In this document: positions 21,873 through 62,006 of the stretch, in pieces
Numbering within the stretch: position 1 is the stretch's first letter
Layout: the number at the start of each line of letters is the position of its first letter
Assembly: GCF_024400215.1 (NCBI RefSeq)
Contig: NZ_CP053748.1
Coordinates: 3,782,001-3,846,000 of the forward strand
Reading direction: 5' to 3'
DNA from: Massilia sp. erpn
Lineage (GTDB): Bacteria; Pseudomonadota; Gammaproteobacteria; Burkholderiales; Burkholderiaceae_D
Length of the DNA: 64,000 nt
Program-made: the position numbers and the translations under genes
Notes under the pieces: model-generated
Database searches by the model: none
Seen by the model: only the letters and a program-made list of their open reading frames with translations
Told to the model about the DNA's origin: nothing

Positions 21873-22387
21873 AGCAGCCGTTTAGGGTAGCGATCCTGGG
21901 CAGCGCCTCGTCCGGCAAGACCACGTTGGCGGCGGCCCTGGCCGAAAAATACGGCGCGCTCTGGGTGCCTGAGTATCTGCGCGAATTTGTCGATACGCGC
22001 CAGCGGGTGCCGGTCGCAGCCGACCAGATTCACATCGCCCGCACCCAGGTTGCGCGCGAAGACGCCGCCGCCGCGCAAGGCGGCCGCTTCCTCTTCTGCG
22101 ATACCACGCCCGTGATGACGGCGGTCTACAGCCGCCACTACTTCGGCGGCATCGACGCCGAACTGGAAGCGCTGGCCGCCTCCCGCCGCTACGACGTGAC
22201 GCTGGTGTGCGCCCCCGACATCCCCTGGATGCCCGACGGCCTGCACCGCGAAAACCAGGACCTGAGCGGCATCATCAACGGCTATCTCAGCGAAGAACTG
22301 GCGCGTCGCGCCATCCCCCACACCCGCATCCACGGCCCCCTGGCCGAGCGCCTGGTTCAAGTCGCTCAGCTGCTCGGCCAAGTTTGA
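21869..22387 (+). CDS. NadR-like small P-loop kinase (nucleoside or vitamin kinase)
   Basis: A 172-residue ATP-binding protein with an N-terminal Walker A (GSASSGKTT, about residues 11-19) and the layout of the ribosylnicotinamide-kinase half of NadR: EYLREF after the first helix, FLFCDTTPVMT as the Walker B region, and a lid near PWMPDGLHRENQ. The adenylyltransferase half of enteric NadR is absent. Its ATG overlaps the stop of the PnuC-type gene, so the pair makes a transporter plus trapping kinase. The substrate may be nicotinamide riboside or, given the neighbouring TPP-riboswitch receptor, thiamine. Its stop codon TGA lies in the first box of a dispersed repeat. Confidence 0.82.
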   Translation: MKQPFRVAILGSASSGKTTLAAALAEKYGALWVPEYLREFVDTRQRVPVAADQIHIARTQVAREDAAAAQGGRFLFCDTTPVMTAVYSRHYFGGIDAELEALAASRRYDVTLVCAPDIPWMPDGLHRENQDLSGIINGYLSEELARRAIPHTRIHGPLAERLVQVAQLLGQV

Positions 22388-22468
22388 TCTTCCTCAACAA
22401 ATGTCCAACCCTGGTGTCAGGCGGGGCCGCCGAGGCACGAAGGTAGGACATTGTTTGATTTTGCGCAA
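22384..22468. repeat. Dispersed palindromic repeat, locus A (one unit, two boxes)
   Basis: Box TTGATCTTCCTCAA at 22384-22397, a 2-nt gap, a hairpin unit at 22400-22452 beginning AATGTCCAACC and ending GGTAGGACATT, a 2-nt gap, and a box TTGATTTTGCGCAA at 22455-22468. The unit is 53 nt rather than 38-39, because its centre is replaced by a GC-rich segment (GGCGGGGCCGCC). It lies between convergent genes, and the first box contains the TGA stop of the kinase gene. Compare loci B, C and D. Confidence 0.88.
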
Positions 22469-22470
22469 AT

Positions 22471-24591
22471 TTAGAAGTCGAACTGGGCCGACAGCTTGTA
22501 GGTGCGCTCGGCGCCGGGGAAGAGGTAGCCGCCCAGCTCCGGCGTGACGTCGCGCCAGTAGAACTTGTTGGTGACGTTGTTGATCTGGGCGCGCAGCACG
22601 GTCTTGTTGCCGGCAATGCTGGTGGCCCAGGCGGCGCCCAGGTTCAGCAGATGGTAGGCTGGGACCATGACCTTGTTCTGGTCGTCGAAGGCTTTGTTGC
22701 CGGAGTATTGCCAGTTGGCGTTCAGCTTCAGGCCCGCCACTTGCGGCACGGAGTATTCGGCGTACACGGTGGACTTGAACTTGGCGACGTTCGGTACGCG
22801 CTTGCCGTCCATGCCCGGCTGGCCGGTGCCTTCCTGGTGGGTGTTCAGCGCGGTGGCCGATGCGCCCAGCAGCAGGTCCGGCGTCAGCTTGCCTTGTGCC
22901 GAGAATTCCACGCCGCGGTGGCGCGCTTCGCCGCTGCGCACGAAGGTGCCGCCTGTGCCCAGCGTGTAGTCGGTGAATTCCAGGCCTTTGGTGATCTGGA
23001 AGACGGAGGCCGCCAGATTCAGGCCGCCGACATCGGCTTTCACGCCAGCTTCAAGCTGTTTGGATTTGCCGGGCGCGAGGGCTTGCTTCTCGTTGCTCGT
23101 GCCTTTGGGCGCGATGCTGCCCAGTTCCAGGCCTTGGGCGTAGGAGCCGTACACGGCCAAACCGGCGTTCGGGCTGAAGACCAGCGCCACATTCGGCAGC
23201 CAGAAGCCTTGGTCGATATCGTATTTGGCCTTGGCTTCATGGCGCTTGACCTGCACATGGCGCGCGCCGGCATGCAGTTTCAGCGTGTCGTTCAGGGCGA
23301 TGACGTCCTGGGCGAAGAAGGCGCGCTGCTGGTCGTTGCGGCGTTCCGAGACCGGACCGCTGCTCAGGCCCGTCGCCTGCAGCGTCACAGGACGGTAGAT
23401 ATTGCTGGTGCCGACGCCTTCGTAAATATAGTCGCCCCAGTATTCGCTGTTCTTGAAGTAGGAATAGCCAGCGGTCAGCTCGTGGCGCAGCGTGCCGGTG
23501 GCGAATTTGCCCTGCACCATGGCCTGCACGGTCTGCGGTTTTTTCTTCTCGCCCAGGCTGACATAGTCATACACATCGAAATCGCCATTGGCGCAGAAGC
23601 CGCTGTCCAGGCCTTCGCGGTAGCAGCCCAGCGGGAAGGCGGTGTAATCGTCGCGCTTCAGCGTGTGGCGGTTGGCGCTGACGGTGGCGCTCCAATCCTG
23701 ATTGAATTCGTACTGGAAGCGCAGGCCGATATTGCTGCTCTCCGTTTCCACCGGCTTGCTCCAGGGCTGATTGTTCAGCATATTGTCGGCGGTGACATTC
23801 GGCAGGGTGGTTCCGCTGATCAGCTGGAAACCGGGCGCCGTCACCTGGGATTTTTTCTGGTAGTCGGCGTCGATCTGCAGCAGCGCCTGCGGCGTGATCT
23901 GCCAGTCGAAGGCGCCGGAAACGAAGTTGCGGTGGCCATCCGCGCCCTTGATATAGGAACGTAGACGTTCGGCCGCCGCATTGACGCGGTAACCGAAGCG
24001 TTTGTCTTCGAAGCGCCCACCCAGATCGACAGAGCCGAATAGCGTACCGCGCTCGCTCGCTTCCAGCGTGACGGAGCGCAGCGGCGCATTGGTCGGACGC
24101 TTGGTCACATAGTTGACGATGCCGCCCGGCGCCGCCACGCCAGCCTGCAGACCGGCCAGGCCTTTGAGCACTTCCAGGCGCTCTTTGTTCTCCAGCGGGA
24201 TTTGCGTATCGCCGGAAATCGCCATGCCATCCTTGCGGTAGCTGTTCGCGTTATTCAGCTTGAAGCCGCGGATCGAAAACTGCTCCGCATAGCCGACCGC
24301 GTTATACGAATCGCTGATGCTGGCATCGAACTTGGCCGCATCGGTGGTCGAGCGGATATTCAGATCCTGCATCTGTTCGCGCGACAGCACGCTGACCGAA
24401 GCCGGCGTTTGCATCAATGGCGTATCGGAGAAGCCGGCGACAGCCGCGCGCTCGCCGCTGGTACGGCTGGCGCTTACCACCACCTCGGTCATTTTCGCGT
24501 CACCCGATGGCGACTGCGCGTAAGCGGAAGACGAAAAAGCCTGCGCCACAGCCAGCGCGAGGACGGAAACAGCAAAATTCGGAGTAGGCAT
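22471..24591 (-). CDS. TonB-dependent outer-membrane receptor under TPP riboswitch control
   Basis: A 706-residue TonB-dependent receptor that resembles siderophore receptors. It has a signal peptide ending SSSAYAQ, a TonB-box-like TEVVVSA near residue 36, a plug domain with SVSVLSREQM, FSIRGF and LEVLKGLAG, then a 22-strand barrel ending in YKLSAQFDF with the usual terminal Phe. The name 'siderophore receptor' would be misleading: a TPP aptamer lies at 24666-24740 on the same strand, 74 nt before the ATG, so the substrate is more likely thiamine or a thiamine precursor. The start MPTPNFAV has AAGAG upstream, which lies in a possible sequestering stem. It is a single-gene unit, convergent with the PnuC-type transporter and kinase. 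Confidence 0.92.
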   Translation of the reverse strand: MPTPNFAVSVLALAVAQAFSSSAYAQSPSGDAKMTEVVVSASRTSGERAAVAGFSDTPLMQTPASVSVLSREQMQDLNIRSTTDAAKFDASISDSYNAVGYAEQFSIRGFKLNNANSYRKDGMAISGDTQIPLENKERLEVLKGLAGLQAGVAAPGGIVNYVTKRPTNAPLRSVTLEASERGTLFGSVDLGGRFEDKRFGYRVNAAAERLRSYIKGADGHRNFVSGAFDWQITPQALLQIDADYQKKSQVTAPGFQLISGTTLPNVTADNMLNNQPWSKPVETESSNIGLRFQYEFNQDWSATVSANRHTLKRDDYTAFPLGCYREGLDSGFCANGDFDVYDYVSLGEKKKPQTVQAMVQGKFATGTLRHELTAGYSYFKNSEYWGDYIYEGVGTSNIYRPVTLQATGLSSGPVSERRNDQQRAFFAQDVIALNDTLKLHAGARHVQVKRHEAKAKYDIDQGFWLPNVALVFSPNAGLAVYGSYAQGLELGSIAPKGTSNEKQALAPGKSKQLEAGVKADVGGLNLAASVFQITKGLEFTDYTLGTGGTFVRSGEARHRGVEFSAQGKLTPDLLLGASATALNTHQEGTGQPGMDGKRVPNVAKFKSTVYAEYSVPQVAGLKLNANWQYSGNKAFDDQNKVMVPAYHLLNLGAAWATSIAGNKTVLRAQINNVTNKFYWRDVTPELGGYLFPGAERTYKLSAQFDF

Positions 24592-24594
24592 ATT

Positions 24595-24633
24595 GTGCTC
24601 TTGTAGTCGGCGGACAGGCCAACGCAGGAGCAC
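24595..24633 (-). promoter_or_regulatory. Candidate RBS-sequestering hairpin of the TPP riboswitch
   Basis: On the minus strand GTGCTC (24633-24628) can pair with GAGCAC (24600-24595), extended by two more pairs after a mismatch. The 3' arm includes the AAGAG Shine-Dalgarno of the receptor gene. This would be the expression platform for translational control, if the aptamer state decides whether the stem forms. No fold was computed. Confidence 0.45.
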
Positions 24634-24665
24634 TCAAAGGAGGGAGACAACAACTTTGCGCTTTC

Positions 24666-24740
24666 CTTCGCTGGCATTATCCAGATCAGGTACGAAGGGT
24701 ATCTCTCACCCGGAACAGCGTTCCAGGACCCCTAGCGAAG
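24666..24740 (-). ncRNA. TPP riboswitch (THI element)
   Basis: Read on the minus strand, the closing helix CTTCGCT / AGCGAAG brackets the conserved thi-box blocks. These are AGGGGTCC, then GTGAGAGATACCC (TGAGAGATACC is the pyrimidine-sensing core), then CCTGATCTGGATAATGCCAG (the pyrophosphate-binding arm). The conserved blocks are in the correct order, with a short variable P3 region. It sits 74 nt upstream of the TonB receptor ATG on the same strand, so thiamine pyrophosphate should repress the receptor. Confidence 0.95.
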
Positions 24741-24766
24741 CCCGAAGCTTACCACAAGCCCCCCGT

Positions 24767-24893
24767 TTGCGCTAAATCAAGCAATGTCCAACCCTGGTGC
24801 CAGGCACGCAGGTCGGACATTCTTTGAGAAAAATCAAAGAATGTCCGCCTCTGGTGCCTGACACCAGGGTGGACATTTGTTGAGGAAGATCAA
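24767..24893. repeat. Dispersed palindromic repeat, locus B (two units, three boxes)
   Basis: Boxes TTGCG-CTAA-ATCAA (24767-24780), TTGAG-AAAA-ATCAA (24824-24837) and TTGAG-GAAG-ATCAA (24880-24893) alternate with palindromic units at 24783-24821 (39 nt) and 24840-24877 (38 nt). Every box-to-unit gap is 2 nt. The last box read on the minus strand is identical to the first box of locus A, and it contains the stop codon of the alcohol dehydrogenase. It occupies the space between the TPP riboswitch region and that gene's 3' end. Confidence 0.9.
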
Positions 24894-26047
24894 AGGCTGA
24901 GGGTGAGGGCGGCGCGGGTGGTGGCGCTGTCGATGTCGTGGTGCTCGCCCAGGTGCACGGAGCCGGCGGCTTCGAGGGCGTTGACGACGGCGTCGATGGC
25001 GCTGGCGTCCAGGCCGTAGGCGCTCAGGCGCGTGGGGACGGCCATCTGTTCGAAGAAGTTTCTGGTGGCGGCAATCGCGGCGTCGATGCGGCTGTCTTCG
25101 CCGCCATCGCGCAAGCCCCAGACGCGCTCCGCATACTGCAGCAGCTTGGCGCGCTTGGCGTCGCGTTTGACCTGCATGATGCCGGGCAGGACGACAGCCA
25201 GGGTTTGGGCGTGGTCGAGTCCATACAGGGCGGTCAGCTCATGCCCGATCATATGGGTGGACCAGTCCTGCGGCACGCCGACGCCAATCAGGCCGTTCAG
25301 GGCCATGGTGGCGCTCCACATCACATTGGCGCGCACGGCCAGGTCGTCGGGCTGGCTCAGGGCTTGCGGACCTTCTTCGATCAGCGTCAACAGCAGGCCT
25401 TCGGCATAGCGGTCCTGTACCGGCGCTTGCGCCGGGTAGGTCAGGTACTGTTCCATGACGTGGACGAAGGCGTCGACCACGCCGTTGCCGACCTGGCGCG
25501 CGGGCAGGGTCAGGGTCTTGGCCGGGTCGAGCACGGAGAACACGGGATAGACGTGGCGGCTCATGAAGCCGCGTTTTTCCTGCGTGGCGTGGCGGGTGAT
25601 GACGCTGGCGCTGTTCATCTCGGAACCGGTGGCGGGCAGGGTCAGCACGCTGCCGAAGGGCAGGGCGGACTGGATCACTTTGCCGCCTTTGCTGAGAATG
25701 TCCCAGGCGTCGCCTTGATACAGGGCCGCCGCGGCGATGAATTTGGTGCCGTCGATGACGGAGCCGCCGCCCACGGCCAGCAGGAAGCCAACCTGTTCGC
25801 GCCGCACCAGCTCCACCGCCTGCATCAGGGTTTCGTAGTGAGGATTCGGTTCGATGCCGCCGAATTCCAGCACGGTGTGGCCGGACAGCGCGGCTTTGAC
25901 CTCGTCATACACGCCATTGCTCTTGATGCTGCCGCCGCCGTAGAGCATCAGCACTTTGGCGCCTGCCGGCACCTGCTTGGCGAGGGCGGCGATCTGACCC
26001 TGGCCGAAGAGGATGCGGGTGGGGTTGTGGAATTCGAAGTTCTGCAA
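24890..26047 (-). CDS. yqhD: Iron-containing alcohol dehydrogenase, YqhD-like
   Basis: A 385-residue NADPH-type aldehyde reductase / alcohol dehydrogenase of the metal-dependent family. The start is a TTG at 26047 (QNFEFHNPTRILFG follows, the standard YqhD opening), with AAAAGAG 7 nt upstream. A longer frame from 26188 would overlap the divergent gene's promoter. The cofactor motif YGGGSIKSNGVYDEV is present. Metal-binding Asp/His occur in GNGVVDAFVHVMEQY, and two more His in MIGHELTALYGLDHAQ. YqhD enzymes detoxify short aldehydes formed by lipid peroxidation. Its TGA stop lies in a repeat box of locus B. It is divergent from the small gene at 26187. Confidence 0.9.
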   Translation of the reverse strand: MQNFEFHNPTRILFGQGQIAALAKQVPAGAKVLMLYGGGSIKSNGVYDEVKAALSGHTVLEFGGIEPNPHYETLMQAVELVRREQVGFLLAVGGGSVIDGTKFIAAAALYQGDAWDILSKGGKVIQSALPFGSVLTLPATGSEMNSASVITRHATQEKRGFMSRHVYPVFSVLDPAKTLTLPARQVGNGVVDAFVHVMEQYLTYPAQAPVQDRYAEGLLLTLIEEGPQALSQPDDLAVRANVMWSATMALNGLIGVGVPQDWSTHMIGHELTALYGLDHAQTLAVVLPGIMQVKRDAKRAKLLQYAERVWGLRDGGEDSRIDAAIAATRNFFEQMAVPTRLSAYGLDASAIDAVVNALEAAGSVHLGEHHDIDSATTRAALTLSL

Positions 26048-26186
26048 TTGATAACTCTTTTCGTTGAAACTGCGGACATTATCCCCGATCGGGCCGCATT
26101 TCGTGCGACGTCCATCCTTTTCAGCGGCTAGACTTGAGAAATCTGCGCCGTCCGCCGACAATGCCTGTATTGATAAGGAGTCTGCC

Positions 26187-26486
26187 ATGGCACAGGAAGA
26201 ACTGATTGAGGAACGCGATTATCTGAACGCGCAAGTGATCGACATGCACCGCGCTTTGCGCTCCCTCGCCGAAAAGCTGGAGCAGCTGGATCTGCATAAC
26301 CAGCGCATCGAGGCTTGCACCGATCCCGAGCTGAAGCTGGTCATGGCCAGCCAGCGCGATGCCACCCGCAAGCATATCGCCATGCTGCTGGAGTGGGTGC
26401 GTCGGCGCGATCCGAAACTGGATAAGGAAATGAAGGATGCGCTGTTCAAGGCGGGTCCGATCGCGGCGCAATACCATTATGAGTAA
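26187..26486 (+). CDS. Small hypothetical protein, helical
   Basis: A 99-residue protein with a strong ribosome site (AAGGAG, 6 nt before ATG 26187). I do not recognise the family. The sequence is charged and appears all-helical, with a heptad-like stretch ALRSLAEKLEQLDLHNQRIE (about residues 23-42). It has no signal peptide, no cysteine pair and no membrane segment, so it is probably cytoplasmic. It lies 27 bp upstream of the Imm26-like gene on the same strand and may be cotranscribed with it. The real ribosome site and the normal codon use support it as a gene. Confidence 0.75.
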   Translation: MAQEELIEERDYLNAQVIDMHRALRSLAEKLEQLDLHNQRIEACTDPELKLVMASQRDATRKHIAMLLEWVRRRDPKLDKEMKDALFKAGPIAAQYHYE

Positions 26487-26513
26487 GGCCGCTGTTGTAC
26501 TGAAAGGATGTGA

Positions 26514-26990
26514 ATGAGATTGAAGCCCTACCGCGAAGGAAGCTGGTTTGCCGTGCCGCTCCGGCATGGCGGTTATGCCACGGGATTGGTAGCCCGCTTG
26601 TCGCCGCAAGGGAAAATCATGCTGGCCTACCTGTTTGGTCCGAAGCGTGAGGACGTGCCTGCGCTGGAGGAGGTGGCCGGCCTCACGGCCCAGGATGCGC
26701 TGAAGGCCATCCGTACCGGCGACGTGGCCCTGGCCAACGGCCGCTGGCCCGTGATCGGCGATGCCGAGGAGTGGCAGCGCGCCGACTGGCCGGTGCCGGT
26801 CTTCATCCGCCGCGCCGACGCCTTGAAGCGGGCTTGGCGCGCCACCTATGCCGATGATCCAGCCCGCCCGGAGAAGGAAGTGTCGGTGCCGTATGAAACC
26901 GAGGGGCTGGAAAGTGATTCCCTGTACGGCTACGGCTCGACCGAGCTGCTGCTGACTAAGCTGCTGGAGCCGCCGACCCTGGCGGCGTAG
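26514..26990 (+). CDS. Imm26-like immunity-family protein
   Basis: A 158-residue protein resembling the Imm26 family of predicted immunity proteins for polymorphic toxins. The opening YREGSWFAVPLRHGGYATGL, followed by AYLFGPKRE, is the family pattern: an aromatic and basic start, VPL, GGYA, and a later FGP. No toxin, Rhs or secretion gene is seen nearby, so it is an orphan immunity gene or a housekeeping relative. Its last 35 bp overlap the 3' end of the convergent sigma-factor gene. Family recognition is by motif memory only, and the function is inferred. Confidence 0.65.
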   Translation: MRLKPYREGSWFAVPLRHGGYATGLVARLSPQGKIMLAYLFGPKREDVPALEEVAGLTAQDALKAIRTGDVALANGRWPVIGDAEEWQRADWPVPVFIRRADALKRAWRATYADDPARPEKEVSVPYETEGLESDSLYGYGSTELLLTKLLEPPTLAA

Positions 26991-28263
26991 GCGGCAGGCG
27001 CCGGTGGCAGGTCGCGGCGCGCGTCAGCAGCAGGTCGCGTTCGCGCTCGTTCTGCGTCATGCCGGCGGCGCGCTCGAATTCGGCGCGCGCCTCGTCCAGC
27101 CGGCCCAGTTTGAACAGCAGGTCGCCGCGCACGCTGGGCAGCAGATGGTAGTTGCGCAGCAGCGGCTCGTCGAGCAGGGTGTCGGCCACGGCCAGGCCTT
27201 CGGCCGGGCCGAAGGCCATGGAGACGGCCACCGCCCGGTTCAGCTCCACCACCGGCGAGGACGCCAGTTCGGACAGCGTGTGGTAGAGGGCGGCGATGCG
27301 CAGCCATTCCGTCTCCTCTGCCTTGCGCGCCCGCGCATGGCAGGCGGCGATTTCCGCCTGCAGCACATAGGGCCCGGCTGGACGATCCAGGCGGGCGGCG
27401 CGTTCCAGCGCGGCCAGACCGCGTCCGATCAGGAGCTGGTCCCAGCGCGAGCGGTCCTGCTCCAGCAGCAGTACGGGGCGGCCGCGCGCGTCGCAGCGCG
27501 CCCGCAGGCGCGAGGACTGGATTTCCAGCAGGGCCGCCAGGCCATGCACTTCCGGTTCCTGCGGCGCCAGCCCGGCCAGGATGCGCGCCAGGCGCAGCGC
27601 TTCCTCGCATAGGGCGGGACGCATCCAGTCGGCGCCGGCGCTGGCCGAATAGCCTTCGTTGAAGATCAGGTAAATCACTTGCAGCACGGAGGACAAGCGT
27701 TCCTCCAGCTCGGCGCCGCGCGGCACTTCGTAAGGCACGCGCTTGTCGGCCAGGGTGCGTTTGGCGCGCACGATGCGCTGGGCGATGGTCGGCTCGGCCA
27801 CCAGGAAGGCGCGCGCGATTTCGTCGGTGGACAGGCCGCCCAGCAGGCGCAGGGTGAGCGCCACCCGGCCTTCGGTCGGCAGCACCGGATGGCAGGAGAT
27901 GAAGACCAGGCGCAGCAGGTCGTCGCCGATATTGTCGTCCAGCGTCTTTTCCAGATCGGGAGCGGCATCCTGCAGCAGACCCTCGATCTCGTAAGTCAGT
28001 TCGGCTTCCTTGTCCCGGGTCAGCTTATGGTGGCGCAGATGGTCGAGGGCGCGGTTTTTCGCCACCGTCATCAGCCAGGCCGCCGCATTCTCCGGCATGC
28101 CTTTTTCAGGCCAGATTTCCAGTGCGCTGACCAGGGCATCCTGGGCCATCTCCTCGGCCAGGCCGACGTCGCGCAACATGCGCGTCAGCACCGCGATGAT
28201 CTTGGCCGACTCGATGCGCCAGACCGCATCGAGCCGCTGGTGGATGGCCTGGGAGCTGGTCAC
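26956..28263 (-). CDS. ECF42-type sigma factor with C-terminal TPR-like extension
   Basis: A 435-residue sigma factor, about twice the normal ECF length. Sigma-2 (about 8-80) carries LAEEMAQDALVSALEIWP and NAAAWLMTVAKNRALDHLR. Sigma-4 (about 110-165) carries LGGLSTDEIARAFLVAEPTI. The remaining 250 or so residues form a helical repeat domain (IFNEGYSAS, LCEEALRLARIL, AEIAACHARA, VELNRAVAV) that in this group replaces an anti-sigma factor. The start is GTG at 28263, overlapping the preceding stop as GTGA. The upstream DGPF/YCII genes are the diagnostic partners of the ECF42 group. The trigger is not known from sequence. Confidence 0.9.
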   Translation of the reverse strand: MTSSQAIHQRLDAVWRIESAKIIAVLTRMLRDVGLAEEMAQDALVSALEIWPEKGMPENAAAWLMTVAKNRALDHLRHHKLTRDKEAELTYEIEGLLQDAAPDLEKTLDDNIGDDLLRLVFISCHPVLPTEGRVALTLRLLGGLSTDEIARAFLVAEPTIAQRIVRAKRTLADKRVPYEVPRGAELEERLSSVLQVIYLIFNEGYSASAGADWMRPALCEEALRLARILAGLAPQEPEVHGLAALLEIQSSRLRARCDARGRPVLLLEQDRSRWDQLLIGRGLAALERAARLDRPAGPYVLQAEIAACHARARKAEETEWLRIAALYHTLSELASSPVVELNRAVAVSMAFGPAEGLAVADTLLDEPLLRNYHLLPSVRGDLLFKLGRLDEARAEFERAAGMTQNERERDLLLTRAATCHRRLPPTPPGSAAPAA

Positions 28264-28958
28264 TGGCGTACAACCTCGCGCAATTCAATCTGGATATCGG
28301 GACCGTTGGGGAAGGGATAGTTGCGCACCCATTCATAGGCTTCTTCGCGGCTGGCGGTCTGGATCACCCAGTAGCCCGCGATCAGTTCCTTGATCTCGGT
28401 GAAGGGACCGTCGATCACGGTATGGCGGCCGCCGCTGAGCTTCACGCGCGCGCCTTGCGCCGCCGGTTTCAGTCCTTCGCCCGCCAGGATCACGCCGGCG
28501 CGCACGCCTTCCTCGTTACGGCGCATCATCAGGGCGATATGCGCAGGGTCGACGTGCTCGTCGCGCTCGTGCTTTTCGTTTGCCTTCAGCAGCACCATAT
28601 ACGGCGTGAGCTGGGGCGGCACATTGGCCTCGAAACCCAGGCAGCCGCTGGTGCAGCCGGTTTCACGCACTTCCAGCGTGAATTCGCCCTCGTTGTCGGC
28701 CGTGGGCCATTGCTTGGCCCACTCGATGGCCTCGGCCTGGTCATTGGCTTCGATCACGGTGAAGCCGGCCACCATCTCGTGGGCATTGGGGAAGGGGCCT
28801 TGCTCGACTTCCCAGGCGCTGCCGTTGTACTTCATGCGCGTCGAACGCTCGCTGGAATGCAGCCATTTGCCGTCGGGCAGGGCGGCGGTCAGGCCGGGGG
28901 GCGGGAACGAAGCCTGCTCGGTGCTGGCGTCGGCCCGGCGCAAAATCATAAAGTGCAT
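28260..28958 (-). CDS. Double YCII/DGPF-domain protein
   Basis: A 232-residue fusion of two YCII-related (DGPF) domains. The first (about 1-110) has a degenerate motif QGPF in VEQGPFPNAHEMVAGF; the second (about 118-225) has the full motif in VIDGPFTEIKELIAGYWVI. The start ATG 28958 has a near-perfect AGGAGG 5 nt upstream. The stop overlaps the sigma-factor GTG by 4 nt, so the two are translationally coupled. Such proteins accompany ECF42 sigma factors; their biochemical role is unknown, although some YCII proteins are enzymes or regulators. The loss of the acidic motif residue in domain 1 suggests only domain 2 keeps an active site. Confidence 0.88.
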   Translation of the reverse strand: MHFMILRRADASTEQASFPPPGLTAALPDGKWLHSSERSTRMKYNGSAWEVEQGPFPNAHEMVAGFTVIEANDQAEAIEWAKQWPTADNEGEFTLEVRETGCTSGCLGFEANVPPQLTPYMVLLKANEKHERDEHVDPAHIALMMRRNEEGVRAGVILAGEGLKPAAQGARVKLSGGRHTVIDGPFTEIKELIAGYWVIQTASREEAYEWVRNYPFPNGPDIQIELREVVRQ

Positions 28959-29028
28959 TGCATCCTCCTGTATCGGTTGGCATACGGCCCGGCGCGCAGC
29001 GGGCGCGCGCCGGGTTTGCGGCAAATAC

Positions 29029-29448
29029 TCAGGCAGCGCTTTCGACCTGGGCGCGCAGGCGGTCTTCCTGATCGCGCAGCTCGGGTGTCATGGCGGCGCC
29101 GAAATCCTCCATCTCGAAGACGCGGCGGATTTCCACTTCCGAACCGTCGTCCATCGGCGCGCGCTTCATCCATTCCACCGCTTCGTCCAGCGACTTGACC
29201 TGGATCAGCCAGAAGCCGGCCACCAGCTCCTTGGTTTCGGCGAAGGGGCCGTCGAGCACCACGCGTTCCTTGCCCTGGTAGCGGATGCGCGCGCCGCGCG
29301 AGCTGGGATGCAGGCCTTCGCCGGCCAGCAGCACGCCGGCGCCCACCAGCTCTTCATTGAAGCGGCCCATCTGGGTCAGGGTTTCTTCCGATGGCATTTC
29401 ACCGGCTTCGGAACGGGCATTGGCTTTGACGATAATCATGAAACGCAT
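29029..29448 (-). CDS. YCII/DGPF-domain protein
   Basis: A 139-residue single-domain protein opening MRFMIIVKA, with a central GAGVLLAGEGLHPSSRGARI and the signature VVLDGPFAETKELVAGFWLI. ATG 29448 has GAGGAG 6 nt upstream; a longer start at 29466 would swallow that site. It lies between the VOC protein and the double DGPF protein on the same strand, in the operon ending with the ECF42 sigma factor. It is closely similar to the second domain of its neighbour, so the set probably arose by duplication. Confidence 0.9.
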   Translation of the reverse strand: MRFMIIVKANARSEAGEMPSEETLTQMGRFNEELVGAGVLLAGEGLHPSSRGARIRYQGKERVVLDGPFAETKELVAGFWLIQVKSLDEAVEWMKRAPMDDGSEVEIRRVFEMEDFGAAMTPELRDQEDRLRAQVESAA

Positions 29449-29471
29449 GGCAGTCTCCTCGTGCATCAGAA

Positions 29472-29963: not shown

Positions 29964-30020
29964 GATGAGGTCTCCTATCAAGGGTTGGCGGAGAGCGCAC
30001 ATTGCGCTTCCATATCCCCA

Positions 30021-30048: not shown

Positions 30049-30055
30049 AGCCTGA

Positions 30056-30088: not shown

Positions 30089-30114
30089 CCAGCTTTGCCG
30101 AGCGATATGACTCA

Positions 30115-31479: not shown

Positions 31480-31497
31480 GCGGTGCTGCCGGGCACC

Positions 31498-49316: not shown

Positions 49317-49324
49317 GATGATGT

Positions 49325-53572: not shown

Positions 53573-53573
53573 T

Positions 53574-55593: not shown

Positions 55594-55705
55594 GTGGCAA
55601 AGCCTTTCTTGTTGAATTTTCGACATTATAGTCCCATGAATGATGATTCAGAGCAATCGCCGCCGTGCTTTATACTGTCGGATTACTCCAGTTTTTTAAG
55701 CAGCC

Positions 55706-56956
55706 ATGTCCTTTTCCTCTCTCGGCCTTGCGCCCTCCCTGTTGAACGCCCTGGCCGAAATCGGCTACGCAGCGCCGACCGCCATTCAATCGGCCTCCGT
55801 TCCACCCGCCCTGCGTGGCGAGGATGTACTGGGCGCGGCGCAAACCGGCTCCGGCAAGACCATGGCTTTTGCCCTGCCCATGCTGCACGCGCTGCTGGCG
55901 AAAAAAGCCGGCCCGCGCCAGCTGCATGGCCTGGTGCTGGCGCCCACGCGCGAGCTGGCGGCCCAGGTGGGAGAGGCGATCCGCAAGCTGGTATCGCATC
56001 TGCCGGTGCCACTCAAGGTATCGATCGCCTTTGGCGGCGTCTCGATCAATCCGCAGATGATGGCGCTGCGCGGGGGCACCGACATCATGGTCGCCACGCC
56101 GGGCCGCCTGCTCGATCTGGTCGAGCACAATGCGCTCAAGCTCGATAGCGTCGCCACCCTGGTGCTGGACGAGGCGGACAAGCTGCTCGACATGGGCTTC
56201 AGCGAAGAGATTGGACGCATCCTGGCCCTGCTGCCCGCGCAGCGCCAGAACCTGTTCTTCTCCGCCACCTTCCCGGCGGCGGTGCAGGAACTGGCCACGC
56301 GCATGCTGCACCAGCCGGTGAAGGTGGAAACCACGGCAGAAGCGGCGCAGGAACCGGATATCCTGCAGCGCGCCATCGAAGTCGATGCGCCGCGCCGCAC
56401 GCAATTGCTGAAGCATCTGATCAAGACGGAAAAATGGGAGCGCGTGCTGGTCTTCGTCGCCACCAAATACGCCTCCGAGCACTTGGCCGACAAGCTGCGC
56501 CAGAACGGCGTGCGGGCCGAAGCCTTCCACGGCGATTTCAGCCAGGGCGCGCGCACCGAAGTGCTGGCCGATTTCAAATCCGGCCGCCTGCAAGTGCTGG
56601 TCGCAACCGACGTCGCGGCGCGCGGCATCGACATCGCCCAGCTGCCCGTGGTGGTGAACTACGACCTGCCGCGTTCCGCCGCCGACTACACCCACCGCAT
56701 CGGCCGCACCGGCCGCGCCGGCGCCAGCGGCACCGCCGTCAGCTTTGTCAGCGCCGACAGCGAAGCCCACTTCCGCCTGATCGAAAACCGCCAGAACAAA
56801 CGCGTGCCGCGCGAACGCATCGACGGCTTCGAACCGGTGCAGCAAGCTGCCGCCGTGCATCCCGCCACCGATACCGTCAACGGCGGCATCAAGGGCAAGC
56901 GCAAGAGCAAGAAAGACAAACTGCGCGAAGCCGCCGCCCAAACCAAGCCCGTTTGA
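55706..56956 (+). CDS. rhlE: DEAD-box RNA helicase, RhlE-like
   Basis: A 416-residue ATP-dependent RNA helicase used in ribosome assembly and mRNA decay. Motifs in order: Q motif (PTAIQ, Gln28), Walker A AQTGSGKT (45-52), PTRELA, GG, TPGRLLD, DEAD in VLDEADKLLDMGF, SAT in FFSATFP, then the second domain with VATDVAARGID and HRIGRTGRAG. The opening MSFSSLGL is RhlE-typical. A basic KGKRKSKKDKLREAAAQ tail binds RNA. Its stop codon TGA is supplied by the first box of repeat locus C. Confidence 0.93.
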   Translation: MSFSSLGLAPSLLNALAEIGYAAPTAIQSASVPPALRGEDVLGAAQTGSGKTMAFALPMLHALLAKKAGPRQLHGLVLAPTRELAAQVGEAIRKLVSHLPVPLKVSIAFGGVSINPQMMALRGGTDIMVATPGRLLDLVEHNALKLDSVATLVLDEADKLLDMGFSEEIGRILALLPAQRQNLFFSATFPAAVQELATRMLHQPVKVETTAEAAQEPDILQRAIEVDAPRRTQLLKHLIKTEKWERVLVFVATKYASEHLADKLRQNGVRAEAFHGDFSQGARTEVLADFKSGRLQVLVATDVAARGIDIAQLPVVVNYDLPRSAADYTHRIGRTGRAGASGTAVSFVSADSEAHFRLIENRQNKRVPRERIDGFEPVQQAAAVHPATDTVNGGIKGKRKSKKDKLREAAAQTKPV

Positions 56957-57023
56957 TCCAAATCAACGAATGTCCCACCCTAGTGCCTGACACCAGGGTG
57001 GGACATTTTTTGATGTGGATCAA
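56953..57023. repeat. Dispersed palindromic repeat, locus C (one unit, two boxes)
   Basis: Perfect box TTGAT-CCAA-ATCAA (56953-56966), a 2-nt gap, a 39-nt unit 56969-57007 (AATGTCCCACCCTAGTG ... CACCAGGGTGGGACATT), a 2-nt gap, and perfect box TTGAT-GTGG-ATCAA (57010-57023). Both boxes match the FNR/CRP-type consensus. The first box contains the helicase stop codon. The locus fills the gap between convergent genes, ending 3 bp before the lipoprotein gene's stop. Confidence 0.92.
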
Positions 57024-57026
57024 ACT

Positions 57027-57695
57027 TTATGGGGCGGGGCTTTGGATGAGGGCGATGCGGCGGCGAAGGCGTGCGGCTTCGGCGGTGTCGCCGGCTTTGT
57101 CGGCGCGCTGGGCCTGGACCTTGAGCCAGGCAAGCAGGGGGCGGCGCCAGCCTTGCGCGGAGGCGGTGTCGATGGCGAGCGTCAGCAGCTCGGGTGTGGC
57201 GCGGTTGGCGCGGAACAGGGCGCCGGCGGCGACCAGGCGGGAGAGGGGATCGCCCATCGCTTGCACGGCTGCCGCTGCGGCGGTGTCGCTGCCGGCGGCG
57301 AGCACGGCGCGCTGCGTTTCGGGCAGCAGGGCGGCGTCGGCGGGATTGGCGCGGCCGGCGAGGTAGCTGGCGTAGGCGATGTCGGCGGCGCTGGCGTCGG
57401 CGCGCAGGGCTTCAAAGCCGCCGCAGTCTTCAAACGCGAGCGCGGCGACGCGGCTTGCGCAGCGTATCAACTCGGCGCGGATCACCAGCTCCATCTTGCC
57501 GGTGCTGGCCAGTTGTTCGCGCGCGCGCTTGAATTCGGTTTTCTCGACGCTGGCATTGCCGCTCATATAAGCAGCCGTAGCGCGCTCCATCGCGCTTTGC
57601 GCGTTCATCTGCCAGTCCGGCACGCGCGGGCCGCTGCCGCAGGCGCTCAACAGCAGCAGGGCGGCGGCGCAGAGGAGGGGGCGGACATGGCTCAT
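57027..57695 (-). CDS. Putative lipoprotein of the Mla-like cluster
   Basis: A 222-residue predicted lipoprotein (lipobox LLSACG, cysteine at about residue 19). The mature part is helical and Ala-rich, with a repeat-like pattern of short helices (EKTEFKRAREQLASTGKMEL, ALAFEDCGGFEALR, DPLSRLVAAGALFRANRA). It has a sequence unlike the usual PqiC-type auxiliary lipoprotein. The start overlaps the MlaD-like stop by 4 nt, so it belongs to the same operon, and it may link the complex to the outer membrane. Function inferred from position only. Confidence 0.8.
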   Translation of the reverse strand: MSHVRPLLCAAALLLLSACGSGPRVPDWQMNAQSAMERATAAYMSGNASVEKTEFKRAREQLASTGKMELVIRAELIRCASRVAALAFEDCGGFEALRADASAADIAYASYLAGRANPADAALLPETQRAVLAAGSDTAAAAAVQAMGDPLSRLVAAGALFRANRATPELLTLAIDTASAQGWRRPLLAWLKVQAQRADKAGDTAEAARLRRRIALIQSPAP

Positions 57696-58663
57696 GGCAG
57701 TTTGATCTCCGTGTCGTCGCGCTTGAAGGGCCATTTACGGTTGATTTCGTTGACCAGCTGTTCGATGCGGCGCAGATTGCTGTCCACGTCGGCGCGCAGC
57801 GCGCCCAGGTCTTCGGTGGCGACACGCGCGTTGGCGCCCACGGCTTGCGCTTCGACCAGCACCGCATCCATCTTCTTCAAGCTGGCGCGCGCGTCGGACA
57901 GCAGGCCATTCAGCTGCACCACGGCCACCTGCGCATCGTTGGCCACGCCGTTCTTGCCGAAGACGCGGTTGTCGGCATTGCCCACCAGCTTGTCGGCCTT
58001 GACGATCAGCGAGTTCGCATTGCGCAGCAGTTCCTGTGCCTTCCTGTCTTCGCCCGCGATCAGGCCCATGGCGCCGCCCGGTCCATTGAGTTTCTGGGTC
58101 ACGCCTTCCACATTGCGCAGGCTATTGCCCAGCGAGGAATCGGCGGCCGTCAGTGCGGCCACATTGTTCAGCAAATCCTTGGCGGCCGACAGCAGGCGCG
58201 GAATCTCGGCCGCCGCGTCGCCCACCAGCAGTTCGCGTTCGGCGCCATCCTTGAGCGGTGGATCGGTGGGGATGCCGCTGAAGGCGCGCAGGCGGGCACC
58301 GCCCACCAGTCCCCGTTCCAGCGTGAAGATGCTGGTAGAGCGCAGCCAGTGCGCATCCTTTTCCGGCACATCGACCAGCACGCGCGCCTTGCCGTCCGCA
58401 CCCAGTTCGATGCGCAGTACGCGTCCCACGGGGAAGCCGGCGAAGGTCATGTCCATGCCCACCGACACGCCTTCGGAGTCGTCGGTGGTCAGGACCAGGC
58501 GCTGGGTCGGTTCGAATGCGCCGCGCGCATACATCAGATACAGCACGGCGCTGGCGACCAGGGCCACCATCAGGAGCAGCAGCAGGGCGGCCTTGAATTC
58601 GGCGTGGCGCACGGGGGCCGCTTCGGGTGCCGGTGCGGCAGGGGAGGGAGTCGGTTCGTTCAT
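57692..58663 (-). CDS. MlaD/MCE-domain lipid-transfer protein
   Basis: A 323-residue periplasmic protein with one N-terminal membrane helix (LLLLMVALVASAVLYLMYA, about 27-46). An MCE domain (about 55-140) has the characteristic DDSEGVSVGMDMTFAGFPVG start. Long helices follow (residues 150-320), with many DARA/VKADKLVGNADNR heptad-like stretches, resembling the tail of PqiB/YebT-type or long MlaD-like proteins. It carries hydrophobic lipids across the periplasm. It lies 13 bp after the permease gene and overlaps the lipoprotein gene. Confidence 0.88.
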   Translation of the reverse strand: MNEPTPSPAAPAPEAAPVRHAEFKAALLLLLMVALVASAVLYLMYARGAFEPTQRLVLTTDDSEGVSVGMDMTFAGFPVGRVLRIELGADGKARVLVDVPEKDAHWLRSTSIFTLERGLVGGARLRAFSGIPTDPPLKDGAERELLVGDAAAEIPRLLSAAKDLLNNVAALTAADSSLGNSLRNVEGVTQKLNGPGGAMGLIAGEDRKAQELLRNANSLIVKADKLVGNADNRVFGKNGVANDAQVAVVQLNGLLSDARASLKKMDAVLVEAQAVGANARVATEDLGALRADVDSNLRRIEQLVNEINRKWPFKRDDTEIKLP

Positions 58664-58676
58664 GATGCAATGTGAA

Positions 58677-59510
58677 TCAGTAGTAGTTGCCCATCAGGGA
58701 GGCGGCTTCGATCAGCAGGATCACGGAGAACATGCGGACCATATCGGCCAGGCCGTGGGTGCCGTGGGCGCGTCCGAACAGCGGATTGGCCGCGCCATGG
58801 TAGTAGGAGGAAGCCAGCGGAATCACGCCCACGGCAAAGCTGAAGAACAGGATTTTCAGCGCCAGGATCATGGAGACGGCAGGATTGAAGATATGCCCCA
58901 CCACCCGCGTATAGCTTTGCAAGGCCCATGGCGTAAAGCCGTATATCGAGAGATAGGCCAGCACCAGGGTCAGCACGCAGCTGACCGCCGCCAGCAGCCA
59001 GACGGCGAACACGCCAGCCGCGGCGCGTGGGAAGAATTCCGTCTGCAGGGCGTCGCGCGCATCGAGGCGGGTTGGGACGCCGCTGGCCGAAGCCGCCGCC
59101 AGTCGCATTTGCGCGAACTCCACACCGGCCGGCAGGGTGCTGCGCAGGGCCACGAAGAGGGCCGCCGTGAGCGGGATCAGTTCCAGCACCAGCACCCGCA
59201 CCACCATCTCCAGCGCATAGCGTGAAAGGCCGTAGCTGAACGACGTCACCACCACGATGCGGATGATAACGAGGCTGATCAAGGCCGACAGCACGGAGAA
59301 CCACAGCAGATTGGGCGCGGTCGCCACCACCAGATGGTGGGCGATCCAGGGCAGCCGGGGACGGGCGTAAGTGGAGGGAGTGAAGGCGCGCGAGACGATC
59401 AATGCCGCGAATTGCAGCAGCCGCCACCAGCTCGTCAGCCAGCCCATGGCGGAACGATGCAGGCGCCGCAGCGGCGGATAGGACGATGCGTTGGTGCTCA
59501 TGAGGGACAT
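58677..59510 (-). CDS. MlaE/YrbE-like lipid ABC transporter permease
   Basis: A 277-residue inner-membrane protein with about five to six hydrophobic segments and the MlaE-fold layout, including PLTAALFVALRS at the EQ-like loop region and the C-terminal MVRMFSVILLIEAASLMGNYY. ATG 59510 has GGAG 7 nt upstream. Its partner MlaF-type ATPase gene is absent from this locus, so the ATPase must come from elsewhere. It is the first gene of the permease-MCE-lipoprotein operon. Confidence 0.82.
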   Translation of the reverse strand: MSLMSTNASSYPPLRRLHRSAMGWLTSWWRLLQFAALIVSRAFTPSTYARPRLPWIAHHLVVATAPNLLWFSVLSALISLVIIRIVVVTSFSYGLSRYALEMVVRVLVLELIPLTAALFVALRSTLPAGVEFAQMRLAAASASGVPTRLDARDALQTEFFPRAAAGVFAVWLLAAVSCVLTLVLAYLSIYGFTPWALQSYTRVVGHIFNPAVSMILALKILFFSFAVGVIPLASSYYHGAANPLFGRAHGTHGLADMVRMFSVILLIEAASLMGNYY

Positions 59511-59524
59511 CTTAGCACTCCGCC

Positions 59525-60391
59525 TTATTTGCCGGGGAACGATTCAATAATGGCATCGGCCACGGCGCGCACGCGTGCGCTGCGATTCAAGTCGCTGTGC
59601 ATCACCAGATACATATCGTAGCTGTGCTCCCGCTCTGGCCAGATGCGTATCAGGCGCGGGTCGGCGTCGGCCATATGGGTGGGCAGTTCGCCGATGCCAA
59701 TGCCGGCGCGCGTGGCTTCCAGCAGCATCAAGCCGGTGTTGACCTCCATCGCCACGCGCGCATTGTGTACCGGCTCGCCGCAGATTTTCTCGGCATGGCG
59801 CGGCGCCACCGAGGCGTGGTAAATGACGATATCGTGGCCCGCCAGGCCCGTGCCGGGCTGCGGCTCGCCGCGTTGCTTGAGGTAGGAACGGGTGGCGTAC
59901 AGGCCCGCCGCGCGCCGCGTCAGGTGGCGCGAGATCAGATCGGGACTGGTGGGTTTCACCGTGCGCACGGCCAGGTCGGCCTCGCGCCGGGTCAGGCTGG
60001 AGACATGGGTATCGACCGACATCACGATGCGGATGTCGGGATGCTGCTTATGCAGACGGTGCATGGCCTCGATGACGAAGTGGACCGCCATGGTGTCGGT
60101 CGTCGCCAGGCGCACCACGCCGGACAGGCGGTTGTCGATGCCCTGCATTTCGCGCTGCAGCTGGTGCGCCGCCTGCTCCATCAATTCAGCCGAGCGCTGC
60201 GCTGTCTCGCCGGCCGGTGTGGGCACATAGCCGTCCGGCGTGCGCAGGAAGAGGCGCGCGTTCAAGCTGCTTTCCATGGCCGCCAGGCGGCGTCCCACCG
60301 TAGCCTGGTCGATGTCCAGCTGCGCCGCCGCGCCGCGCAAAGTGCCGGCGCGGCAGAGCGCCAGAAAGATGCGCGCATGGTCCCAATCCAT
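59525..60391 (-). CDS. LysR-family transcriptional regulator
   Basis: A 288-residue regulator with an N-terminal winged helix-turn-helix (ARIFLALCRAGTLRGAAAQL, about 6-25, then QATVGRRLAAMESSLNARLF) and a substrate-binding domain of the periplasmic-binding-protein fold. It is divergent from the MFS exporter. Between them lie two inverted repeats that are likely its operators. The typical arrangement is a regulator controlling the neighbouring efflux gene and itself. The ligand is unknown. Confidence 0.92.
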   Translation of the reverse strand: MDWDHARIFLALCRAGTLRGAAAQLDIDQATVGRRLAAMESSLNARLFLRTPDGYVPTPAGETAQRSAELMEQAAHQLQREMQGIDNRLSGVVRLATTDTMAVHFVIEAMHRLHKQHPDIRIVMSVDTHVSSLTRREADLAVRTVKPTSPDLISRHLTRRAAGLYATRSYLKQRGEPQPGTGLAGHDIVIYHASVAPRHAEKICGEPVHNARVAMEVNTGLMLLEATRAGIGIGELPTHMADADPRLIRIWPEREHSYDMYLVMHSDLNRSARVRAVADAIIESFPGK

Positions 60392-60404
60392 TTTCCCTCC
60401 CTCT

Positions 60405-60456
60405 CGTGATGCAATTTTGCATCACGATGCCGAGGTGATGCGTCTTTACTGCATCA
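60405..60456. promoter_or_regulatory. Two palindromic operator candidates for LysR regulator
   Basis: A perfect 22-nt palindrome CGTGATGCAA-TT-TTGCATCACG (60405-60426) lies 13 bp upstream of the LysR start. It is followed by TGATGC-N9-GCATCA at 60436-60456. The shared GATGCA half-sites suggest a single protein binds both. Confidence 0.65.
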
Positions 60457-60493
60457 TGAAGCAGAATTAGTATCGATGCAAGGAGGAAACATC

Positions 60494-61864
60494 GTGCTTT
60501 TATTTACCCTCGCCATCGGCTTCGTGATGGCAATGATCGACGTCACCGCCGTGAACACGGCTTTGGGCAGTATTTCTACGGACTTGCATGTGCCGCTATC
60601 GGGCCTGGTGTGGGTGGTGGACGGCTACACCCTGACATTTGCCGCCTTCCTGCTCGCTGGCGGCGCGCTGGCCGACCGCATCGGCGCGCGCCAGACCTAC
60701 CAGGGCGGCCTGCTGGTCTTCGTCGCCGGTTCGCTGGCTTGTGCGCTGGCGCCCAGCGGCAACGCCCTGGTCGCCGCGCGGCTGCTGCAAGGCACGGGGG
60801 CGGCGCTCTTCATGCCCAGCTCATTGAGCCTGCTGACCCACGCCGCGCCAAACGACACGGCGCGCACCCGCATGGTCGGCACCTGGTCGGCACTGGTGGG
60901 CTGCGCCGCCACCATCGGACCGCTGGTGGGCGGCCTGCTGGTGCACGAATTCGGCTGGCGCAGCGTGTTCTGGATTAATCTGCCGCTGGGACTGGCGGGC
61001 ATCGTGCTGGCGCAGATGCTGGCGCCGGCACCGGCCGCGCATCGGCGTCCGCTATCCATGCTCAGCCACGTACTGGGCGTGCTGACGCTGGCCGCGCTCA
61101 GCTTCCTGCTGATCGAAGGTCCGGTGCGCGGCTGGACCTCGCCTTCGGTGGCCATCGCCTCCTTGCTGGCCTTGCTGTTTGCCACCGTGCTGGTATGGCG
61201 CGAGCGCGCCGCAGCCCACCCGATTCTGCCGCGCGCACTGCTGGCCAGCAGCAGCTTTGCCGCCGCCAACTTCACCGGTTTCCTGATCAACTTCGCCGTA
61301 TTCGGCCAGATCTTCCTGCTCAGCCTATTCTTCCAGCAGGCGCAGGGCTCCAACGCGCTGGAGACGGGGATGAAGATTCTGCCCATGCTGGCCGCCAGCA
61401 CCATCGGCAATTTCCTGTCCGGCCGCGTCATCGCGCGCACCGGCACCCGGCCCTCGCTGCTGGGCGGCCTAGCCGTCAGCGCCCTGATGGGCGCCGCGCT
61501 GACCCGCACTGGGCCGCACACGCCCTATCTCTTGATGATGGCCGGCGTGCTGCTGATGTACCTGGCCATCGGCCTCGCCATCCCCGCCATGACGACCACG
61601 GTGATGCAAGTCGCGGGAAAGACCCACGCCAATATCGCCGCCGCCGCGCTGAACGCCAACCGCCAGATCGGCGCCCTGGTCGGCGTTGCCGCCATGGGCA
61701 GCATTCTGCATGCCGTGGAAGACTGGGGCTTGCGCCTGGCGCTCGGTTTCGGCGCCATCGGTCTCGCCTACGGCATCGCCTGCCTGCTGGTACACCAGCA
61801 CGTCCGCCAGCACCAGCCGCAAAGCGGCCCCGACCCCGACGCCACCCTGCAAGCCGGCCACTAA
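60494..61864 (+). CDS. MFS exporter, DHA2 / EmrB-QacA type
   Basis: A 456-residue proton-driven drug or metabolite exporter with about 12-14 hydrophobic helices. The motif-A region LAGGALADRIGARQTY sits after helix 2. Helix 1 carries FVMAMIDVTAVNTAL (the acidic residue of motif D1), and motif C is seen in GPLVGGLLVHEFGWRSVFWI. The start is the GTG at 60494, 7 nt after a strong AAGGAGG; an ATG at 60476 overlaps that site and is less likely. It is divergent from the LysR gene that probably controls it. Confidence 0.88.
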   Translation: MLLFTLAIGFVMAMIDVTAVNTALGSISTDLHVPLSGLVWVVDGYTLTFAAFLLAGGALADRIGARQTYQGGLLVFVAGSLACALAPSGNALVAARLLQGTGAALFMPSSLSLLTHAAPNDTARTRMVGTWSALVGCAATIGPLVGGLLVHEFGWRSVFWINLPLGLAGIVLAQMLAPAPAAHRRPLSMLSHVLGVLTLAALSFLLIEGPVRGWTSPSVAIASLLALLFATVLVWRERAAAHPILPRALLASSSFAAANFTGFLINFAVFGQIFLLSLFFQQAQGSNALETGMKILPMLAASTIGNFLSGRVIARTGTRPSLLGGLAVSALMGAALTRTGPHTPYLLMMAGVLLMYLAIGLAIPAMTTTVMQVAGKTHANIAAAALNANRQIGALVGVAAMGSILHAVEDWGLRLALGFGAIGLAYGIACLLVHQHVRQHQPQSGPDPDATLQAGH

Positions 61865-61878
61865 GTCCAAAGCAGCCT

Positions 61879-62006
61879 TTGATCTAAATCAGCAAATGTC
61901 CAACCCTGGTGTCAGGCACCAGGGTCGGACATTCTTTGATCCAGCGCAAACAATGTCCTACTCCGGTGCCTGACACCAGGGTTGGACATTGTTTGATTTG
62001 GCGCAA
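61879..62006. repeat. Dispersed palindromic repeat, locus D (two units, three boxes)
   Basis: Boxes TTGAT-CTAA-ATCAG (61879-61892), TTGAT-CCAG-CGCAA (61936-61949) and TTGAT-TTGG-CGCAA (61993-62006) alternate with 39-nt palindromes 61895-61933 and 61952-61990, always with 2-nt gaps. The period is therefore 57 nt. It lies between convergent MFS and ribB genes. Confidence 0.92.

Follow-up and report, generated by a model that had tools for sequence, protein, structure and literature searches.

AATGTCC hairpin repeats of Massilia sp. erpn: candidate REPIN-like inverted doublets linked to a RAYT, with cores that turn over between species

What are the hairpin repeats with operator-like edges that recur in a 64,000-nucleotide (nt) stretch of the Massilia sp. 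erpn genome? This stretch (the window; G000:C1:3782001-3846000, where G000 is the species' own genome, one contig of 6.15 Mb) contains four loci in which palindromic units (AATGTCC...GGACATT) alternate with 14-nt boxes. A preliminary description of the window likened the units to the repetitive extragenic palindrome (REP) and REPIN families and called the boxes FNR-like. We put at roughly 80% the probability that the repeats are non-autonomous, REPIN-like inverted doublets tied to one TIR-type REP-associated tyrosine transposase (RAYT) of the Y1/HUH class with a helix-turn-helix (HTH)-like C-terminus. This reading is based on linkage to the gene, copy number, inverted arrangement, predicted folding of single-stranded DNA (ssDNA), placement at gene ends, and copies that are scarcer or decayed in two relatives without this RAYT. 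The likeness to REPs and REPINs is borne out by high copy number, inverted doublets, mostly extragenic positions and a linked RAYT flanked by the repeat.

Plan, copy number and gene context of the repeat

The pattern AATGTCCNNNNNTGGTGNC matches the genome 152 + 156 times and its reversed control not once, so the genome-wide search that had been proposed places the repeat far above chance. We curated 63 elements of the genome, an even sample plus targeted loci, which comprise 50 doublets, 11 singles and two triplets. Their 117 units are 37-53 nt long (70 of 39 nt, 32 of 38 nt). At an offset of 2 nt from the unit, TTG-N8-CAA is complete (6/6 bases) at 184 of 234 edges and has 5/6 bases at the other 50; at offsets 0, 1 or 3-8, the exact motif occurs at no unit edge of the 63 elements. 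Units no more than 30 nt apart are spaced by 18 nt in 45/45 cases. Copies outside the window that break the 2-nt gap, which would have spoken against the proposed grammar, are thus absent from the elements in hand. The junction between units (GGACATT-N18-AATGTCC, at most one mismatch) occurs 117 times in the genome itself, 122 times in G208 and 47 times in G188, both related genomes, with no match to the reversed controls. Sixty evenly spaced 20-kb stretches (1.2 Mb) hold 28 elements, or about 143 per genome; this estimate uses the stretches alone because the window, with four elements in 64 kb, is a non-random stretch, and including it would give 156. The gene-context, box and core-pairing counts below use a stricter unit rule, since an earlier, looser rule admitted false single units.

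The unit loop is asymmetric (GGTGTCAGGCACC) and is reversed in the second unit, with the order > < in 45 of 50 doublets; tandem units are therefore inverted pairs, as in REPINs and BIMEs. As ssDNA, 42 of the 50 doublets are predicted to form one long hairpin through pairing of their two outer arms. Two adjacent unit hairpins, considered as the favoured fold, are predicted for just 8/50. Pairing of the inner arms with each other was also rejected, as their complementarity is below that of shuffles (3.76 vs 3.04 edits, 0/20000), possibly from copying of an asymmetric founder. The outer consensus CTTTGATCnAnATCAAAnAATGTCC, taken from the left ends of the 50 doublets, has no GTAG or GTGG at the 5' foot of the hairpin. 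Judged by their sequence, single-unit elements look like doublets minus one period: loci 1 and 3 of the window, like sites 1606343, 1648881 and 668664, correspond to two-unit elements in a relative, and the outer boxes resemble each other, the right side of 1606343 being the least clear.

The window loci are laid out as follows (window positions).

Locus 1, 22384..22468, no strand: box 22384-22397, unit 22400-22452 (53 nt), box 22455-22468; single-unit element
Locus 2, 24767..24893, no strand: box 24767-24780, unit 24783-24821 (39 nt), box 24824-24837, unit 24840-24877 (38 nt), box 24880-24893; inverted doublet
Locus 3, 56953..57023, no strand: box 56953-56966, unit 56969-57007, box 57010-57023; single unit flanked by convergent genes
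Locus 4, 61879..62006, no strand: box 61879-61892, unit 61895-61933, box 61936-61949, unit 61952-61990, box 61993-62006; inverted doublet with convergent genes on either side

Reading the sequence again recovers the four loci, six units and ten boxes first described, with one more box than units at the window loci and a gap of exactly 2 nt at 12 of 12 positions. The unit length given at first, 38-39 nt, applies to five of the six units; unit 22400-22452 reaches 53 nt because 14 GC-rich nt are inserted in its loop. This insert of about 14 nt (window 22423-22436) is also present in 12 other long units of the genome, making 13 of 117 (51-53 nt long), six in one orientation and seven in the other. 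Similarly, the tandem period of 57 nt is found at 24783/24840 and 61895/61952, while the 56-nt variant also described is absent from the window and occurs elsewhere in the genome. The TGA stop of the upstream + strand open reading frame (ORF) falls within the left box of locus 1, and the stop of the - strand ORF 24890..26188 lies inside the right box of locus 2. An Rfam search matched two riboswitches in the window and left the repeats themselves unmatched: a thiamine pyrophosphate (TPP) riboswitch at 24646-24743 (-), between locus 2 and the long - strand ORF 22471..24633 (RF00059, 67.1 bits), and a flavin mononucleotide (FMN) riboswitch at 62763-62904 (-) (RF00050, 119.2 bits).

All loci had been said to abut gene 3' ends, and this extends to the genome sample. 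Gene calls came from a simple codon-usage script (coding fraction 0.78), and two of 32 sampled elements were too near a stretch end to classify. The remaining 30 occupy 18 convergent gaps and 12 gaps between co-directional genes, with none in a divergent gap; the sampled gene pairs are 129 convergent, 568 tandem and 106 divergent (49, 101 and 39 kb of intergenic DNA, respectively). The nearest gene 3' end is within 59 nt at 30/30 elements and within 14 nt at 27/30, and a stop codon overlaps an outer box at 10/30. None of the 32 sampled elements lies inside a called gene, though one element overlaps the RAYT 3' end. Random placement relative to genes, looked for in these 32, was not found.

Such positions raise the alternative that the elements owe their retention to a role as bidirectional transcription terminators or mRNA 3'-end stabilizers, with mobility incidental. 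The gene-end position, the 18/30 convergent gaps and the stop codons in outer boxes speak for this, as do strong hairpins (locus 4, taken as ssDNA from 61877 to 62009, is predicted to form a single hairpin of -47.8 kcal/mol, z -10.4), and one terminator-like match falls on the locus 3 unit. However, a terminator scan of 5.5 kb stayed at shuffle level (three found, mean 3.9), sites are missing or decayed in relatives, and the proposal leaves the RAYT linkage and the doublet grammar unexplained. We regard it as rather unlikely to be the reason that the elements persist, and as a secondary role it is compatible with the REPIN-like reading.

The linked RAYT, a sister family and the boxes

The preliminary description suggested looking for a linked RAYT, and one is present, bordered and overlapped by AATGTCC repeats. 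Pfam Y1_Tnp matches three genes of the genome; the following is the one tied to the repeats.

RAYT (P0001), G000:C1:769193-770029: 3 Mb from the window, between trmL and rfaE2

The neighbors are identified by NCBIfam TIGR00185 (trmL) and TIGR02199 (the heptose-phosphate adenylyltransferase gene rfaE2), both over cut-off. Two repeat units lie just upstream of the RAYT and a third overlaps its 3' end. The last residues of the protein are encoded by this overlapping repeat (L031 2210-2310; G000:C1 ~769932-770032), and a search with the whole protein picks up many repeat copies through that tail, in four genomes. P0001 scores 42.8 bits against Pfam Y1_Tnp (cut-off 23) and 78.3 bits against NCBIfam REP_Tyr_transpos (E 5.3e-22), just under the cut-off of 80. 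Among 15 relatives the HUH motif H60-Y61-H62 and N123-P124 are invariant and Y119 is nearly so; P0001 thus carries the Class 2 Y-motif Y---NP (Y119...N123-P124). A sequence search against solved structures gave no match at E 0.01.

HTH_23 matches the C-terminus in 12 of the 15 aligned relatives (best E 4.9e-6), with P0001 itself at E 0.1, below the Pfam cut-off. From 117 RAYT loci given to an HTH parser, 39 yielded no ORF, 44 yielded no HTH and 34 were parsed. Only the RAYTs of G000 and G208 (the second of which enters twice, as L181 and L304) have TATR or TAAR as the tetrad of the presumed recognition helix; T[VI][SG]R stands there in 27 of the remaining 31 parsed loci. The apparent switch amounts to one evolutionary event and is only suggestive. 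The third Y1_Tnp gene (G000:C1:1977781-1978212; L033) is 30% identical and has no GTGTCAGGCAC-like core within 1.5 kb.

The second RAYT of the genome, 57% identical, is flanked by CGTGTCC...GGACACG repeats of the same plan, of which there are 14 copies in a 1.264-Mb sample of G000 (L034-L090). A half-site resembling CTCGGC/CTCAGC (one mismatch allowed) stands at offset 2 at 28/28 edges of these copies and at none of offsets 0, 1 or 3-6. Several related RAYTs are flanked by GGGGTCAG repeats.

The boxes of the AATGTCC family could instead be FNR/CRP-type operator sites, with the repeats carrying an anaerobic or cAMP regulon. The two perfect boxes noted at the outset (56953-56966 and 57010-57023) are real, although the other eight of the ten window boxes lack the full FNR-type consensus. 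Across the curated elements, TTGAT-N4-ATCAA fits 15 of 180 boxes, and at least 5/6 bases of TTG-N8-CAA are present at all 234 edges; TTGATTTGGCGCAA and TTGATCTTCCTCAA are common box variants. A Crp-like HTH model also matches the C-termini of six of 15 homologous RAYTs weakly (best E 0.0017), which could alternatively reflect recognition of such a box by the RAYT itself. Yet perfect palindromes are rarer than shuffled half-sites would give in all three box classes: 10/63 left, 0/54 inner and 5/63 right boxes, against 18.1, 13.5 and 16.2, and none of 5000 shuffles per class reached so low a count. Moreover, the elements sit at gene 3' ends, with 0/30 in divergent gaps, and the sister family carries different half-sites at the same offset. 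Judged from the sequence, the box is not an FNR consensus. The FNR-like label is not upheld, and the operator reading, set aside because of the box statistics, the placement relative to genes and the evidence of the sister family, is very improbable.

The two ends of an element also differ. Exactly one TTGCG-half end occurs in 38 of 50 doublets (shuffle mean 24.0, 0/20000); both this and the half-site shuffles overstate independence because the copies are related by descent. Target-site duplication as the origin of the box-unit-box order was rejected, as an element's boxes differ and these 38 doublets have exactly one TTGCG end.

To return to the REPIN-like reading, the RAYT would recognize the folded strand, that is, a hairpin plus a half-site 2 nt outside it, and would copy doublets into gene 3' ends; copying and upkeep would thus work on single strands, as is reported for E. 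coli TnpA_REP (PMC8266576). The boxes would be recognition tails of the repeat family rather than FNR sites.

Relatives and turnover of the core

How does the repeat vary with its RAYT? The strict pattern was found in one of 145 family genomes, the own one; G208, G188 and G181 are not among the 145. A genus search allowing one mismatch gave matches in six of 74 genomes: 352 in the own genome, 369 in G208 (presumably Pseudoduganella violacea CECT 8897; a draft in about 50 contigs), 130 in G188, 16 in G181, two in G160 and one in G207. Since the reversed control also matched once across the set, in G147, chance may account for the lone G207 match. G208 has a RAYT at the same trmL site with a protein 85% identical to P0001, such that the two repeat-richest genomes both have it. 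In G188 and G181, trmL directly adjoins rfaE2 and no RAYT separates them; both genomes retain a different RAYT (56% and 51% identical to P0001, respectively) with a CGTGTCC repeat beside it. The trmL site of G160, G152 and G168 is occupied by a more distant RAYT (47-50%), flanked by CGTGTCC-type repeats. The pattern suggests an old trmL site, AATGTCC tails as the derived form and loss of this RAYT in two relatives. Fewer or decayed copies where this RAYT is missing would fit a role in their upkeep, as seen in four species only.

Sister genomes, whose comparison had been proposed, do differ in presence and absence at individual loci. Two units occupy the orthologous site of locus 1 in two relatives. 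The locus 3 site has two units in G188, one in G208 and none in G181. Locus 4 is absent from G188 and G181, and G181 has a remnant-like single copy at locus 2 and none at loci 1, 3 and 4. At the G181 site of locus 1 (G181:C1 ~193468-193510), a different GC-rich hairpin stands in place of the repeat. Clean empty sites with exact insertion borders were sought and rejected: short unmatched stretches lie at the G181/G188 borders of loci 3 and 4, and a target duplication is therefore unreadable.

Several points weigh against the REPIN-like reading. Transposition, cleavage and binding of the repeats by the RAYT are putative, with mobilization judged from the presence, absence and decay of copies in relatives. 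Abundance could be related to RAYT presence in four species, all of one clade, and G188, a 70-contig draft, has 130 matches despite lacking this RAYT. As a different RAYT persists in both G188 and G181, "no RAYT" is the wrong contrast for them and cross-action is possible. An asymmetric founder copied often would yield the same pattern of half-sites and end types. Finally, both flanks of 27 real G000 elements were found in G208 stretches and all 27 sites are occupied, so no insertion was caught between the two genomes. (The pairing began with 31 sites, four single-unit ones of which are not elements, and some stretches were chosen around known copies.)

These orthologous sites allow frame and core to be compared. 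Stricter pairing yields 26 sites, and 21 of these hold a doublet in each genome. Similarity of the outer boxes (0.91 and 0.94, vs 0.69 at non-orthologous loci) is on a par with that of the flanks (92.4%). The 52-nt core between the loops, at a threshold of 0.85, matches directly at six of the 21 doublets, inverted at eight and neither way at seven; the six and eight are the same in all three pairing analyses. The clearest inversions are at 743517 (51/52 bases when reversed), 1945587, 898325 and 2127076. Scoring orientation by the arms alone and by the inner box alone agrees at 14 of the 21 loci, disagrees at three and ties at four. Mean inverted identity is 0.801 vs 0.766 expected (90/20000) and mean direct identity 0.774 vs 0.761 (3261/20000).

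Could ordinary point mutations, or reshuffling among the similar cores of one pool, account for these differences without inversion? Non-orthologous cores are alike (mean identity 0.76, maximum 0.98 inverted), and the orthologous core is the top match among 29 G208 doublet cores at only nine of 21 loci. It is seldom top because some core types are common, and a few of the eight inversions may be pool matches. At 0.80 or above, the excess of inverted cores is not significant (nine vs 5.8, 1657/20000). At stricter thresholds, however, inverted cores exceed partner shuffling: eight vs 1.66 at 0.85 (0/20000 in one run, 1/20000 in another), four vs 0.71 at 0.90 (47/20000) and four vs 0.38 at 0.93 (1/20000). 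In addition, three species can be compared at 2127076, where G000 and G188 match directly (0.96) and G208 is inverted to both (0.94, 0.98). Misassembly of G208 is judged unlikely because the inverted arms are short. Altogether, we consider an explanation without inversion improbable.

If cores do invert, the RAYT itself might catalyze their inversion and replacement, acting as a single-strand recombinase on two adjacent hairpins. E. coli TnpA_REP is reported to cleave and recombine single-stranded REP in vitro (PMC8266576), and eight inverted and six direct cores among 21 between the two RAYT bearers compare with one inverted, six direct and two neither among nine doublet pairs of G000 and G188. 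Against this, G188 is closer to G000 (flanks 94.8% vs 92.4%) and keeps another RAYT, the numbers are small, and the four pairs of G208 and G188 gave two inverted, one direct and one neither. Template switching at inverted repeats, in the portion of PMC8604942 consulted, needs no transposase. We think catalysis by the RAYT unlikely and draw no conclusion on whether core inversion depends on it, G188 being also less diverged.

Within the REPIN-like reading, we favor core inversion by polymerase template switching between the outer arms; flips are proposed because these arms form a long inverted repeat that would permit the switch. Where a core matches in neither orientation, copying from another locus is suggested, by which a core would sometimes be replaced. 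A fuller version, which we offer tentatively, is that a TIR-type RAYT upholds a large population of REPINs with a fixed outer frame, vertically inherited at gene ends, and an invertible, exchangeable core of ~50 nt; its HTH would read the tail half-sites, having switched with the tails at the split from the CGTGTCC family, and the FNR look would be convergence, the transposase having a Crp-like HTH matched to its own tails.

Comparison with known systems

The closest parallels in behavior are the REPINs and RAYTs of Pseudomonas fluorescens SBW25 (Bertels and Rainey 2011, PMC3116915), which, as far as the consulted part of that account goes, share extragenic inverted doublets, a long ssDNA hairpin, a family-linked RAYT and a spacer less conserved than the ends. 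The repeats here differ in having no GTAG at the hairpin foot, in that each half is a 38-39 nt palindrome, in their 14-nt tails with a fixed 2-nt gap on both sides, and in a RAYT with an HTH-like C-terminus. Core inversion between species is not among the features mentioned in that part of the account. Among the open-licence papers listed by searches on REPs/RAYTs, REPIN inversion and REP spacer inversion, titles and abstract openings name neither this family nor such an inversion. In yeast, spacers invert by template switching such that the arms stay and the spacer flips (Abraham and Hazkani-Covo 2021, PMC8604942, in part); there the spacer changes described span 2-5 bp and lie in coding genes, whereas here ~50-nt cores of a dispersed bacterial repeat are affected. 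Core turnover would give a tangible origin to the "highly diverse spacer" that PMC8049555 (in part) mentions for REPINs.

Enterobacterial REPs and BIMEs are likewise inverted pairs, mostly between convergent or co-directional genes (the relevant part of PMC3733652). Here, in contrast, the GTAG guide is absent and the RAYT is of another subclass. TIRtrons and TIRYTs (Di Nocera et al. 2013, PMC3733652) share the HTH-like RAYT C-terminus and long non-GTAG flanking repeats, and some TIR families are described as self-complementary and dimeric in the portions consulted of PMC3733652 and PMC6006769. The GGGGTCAG repeats beside several related RAYTs fit the published GGGGWSAS motif, while the repeats here have GGTGTCAG in its place; the motif is given as common to a majority of TIRs, not all (PMC6006769, same portion).

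TnpA_Y1 subclass 2.1, equivalent to RAYT group 1 (Quentin et al. 2018, PMC6006769), has the same C-terminal HTH-like domain, and the part of that account consulted reports no REP-like sequences found near its genes. Here, by comparison, there are ~143 elements and 117 two-unit junctions, so that what looks like an HTH-bearing RAYT of a subclass described there without REP-like repeats gains a large, ordered population. Sister species with and without this RAYT make dependence on it testable, and since a sister family is present in the same genome, tail recognition is testable by swapping. Judged by sequence, then, the repeats appear to work like a REPIN while lacking the GTAG of classical REPs, and appear nearest to TIRtrons and the HTH-bearing subclass 2.1.

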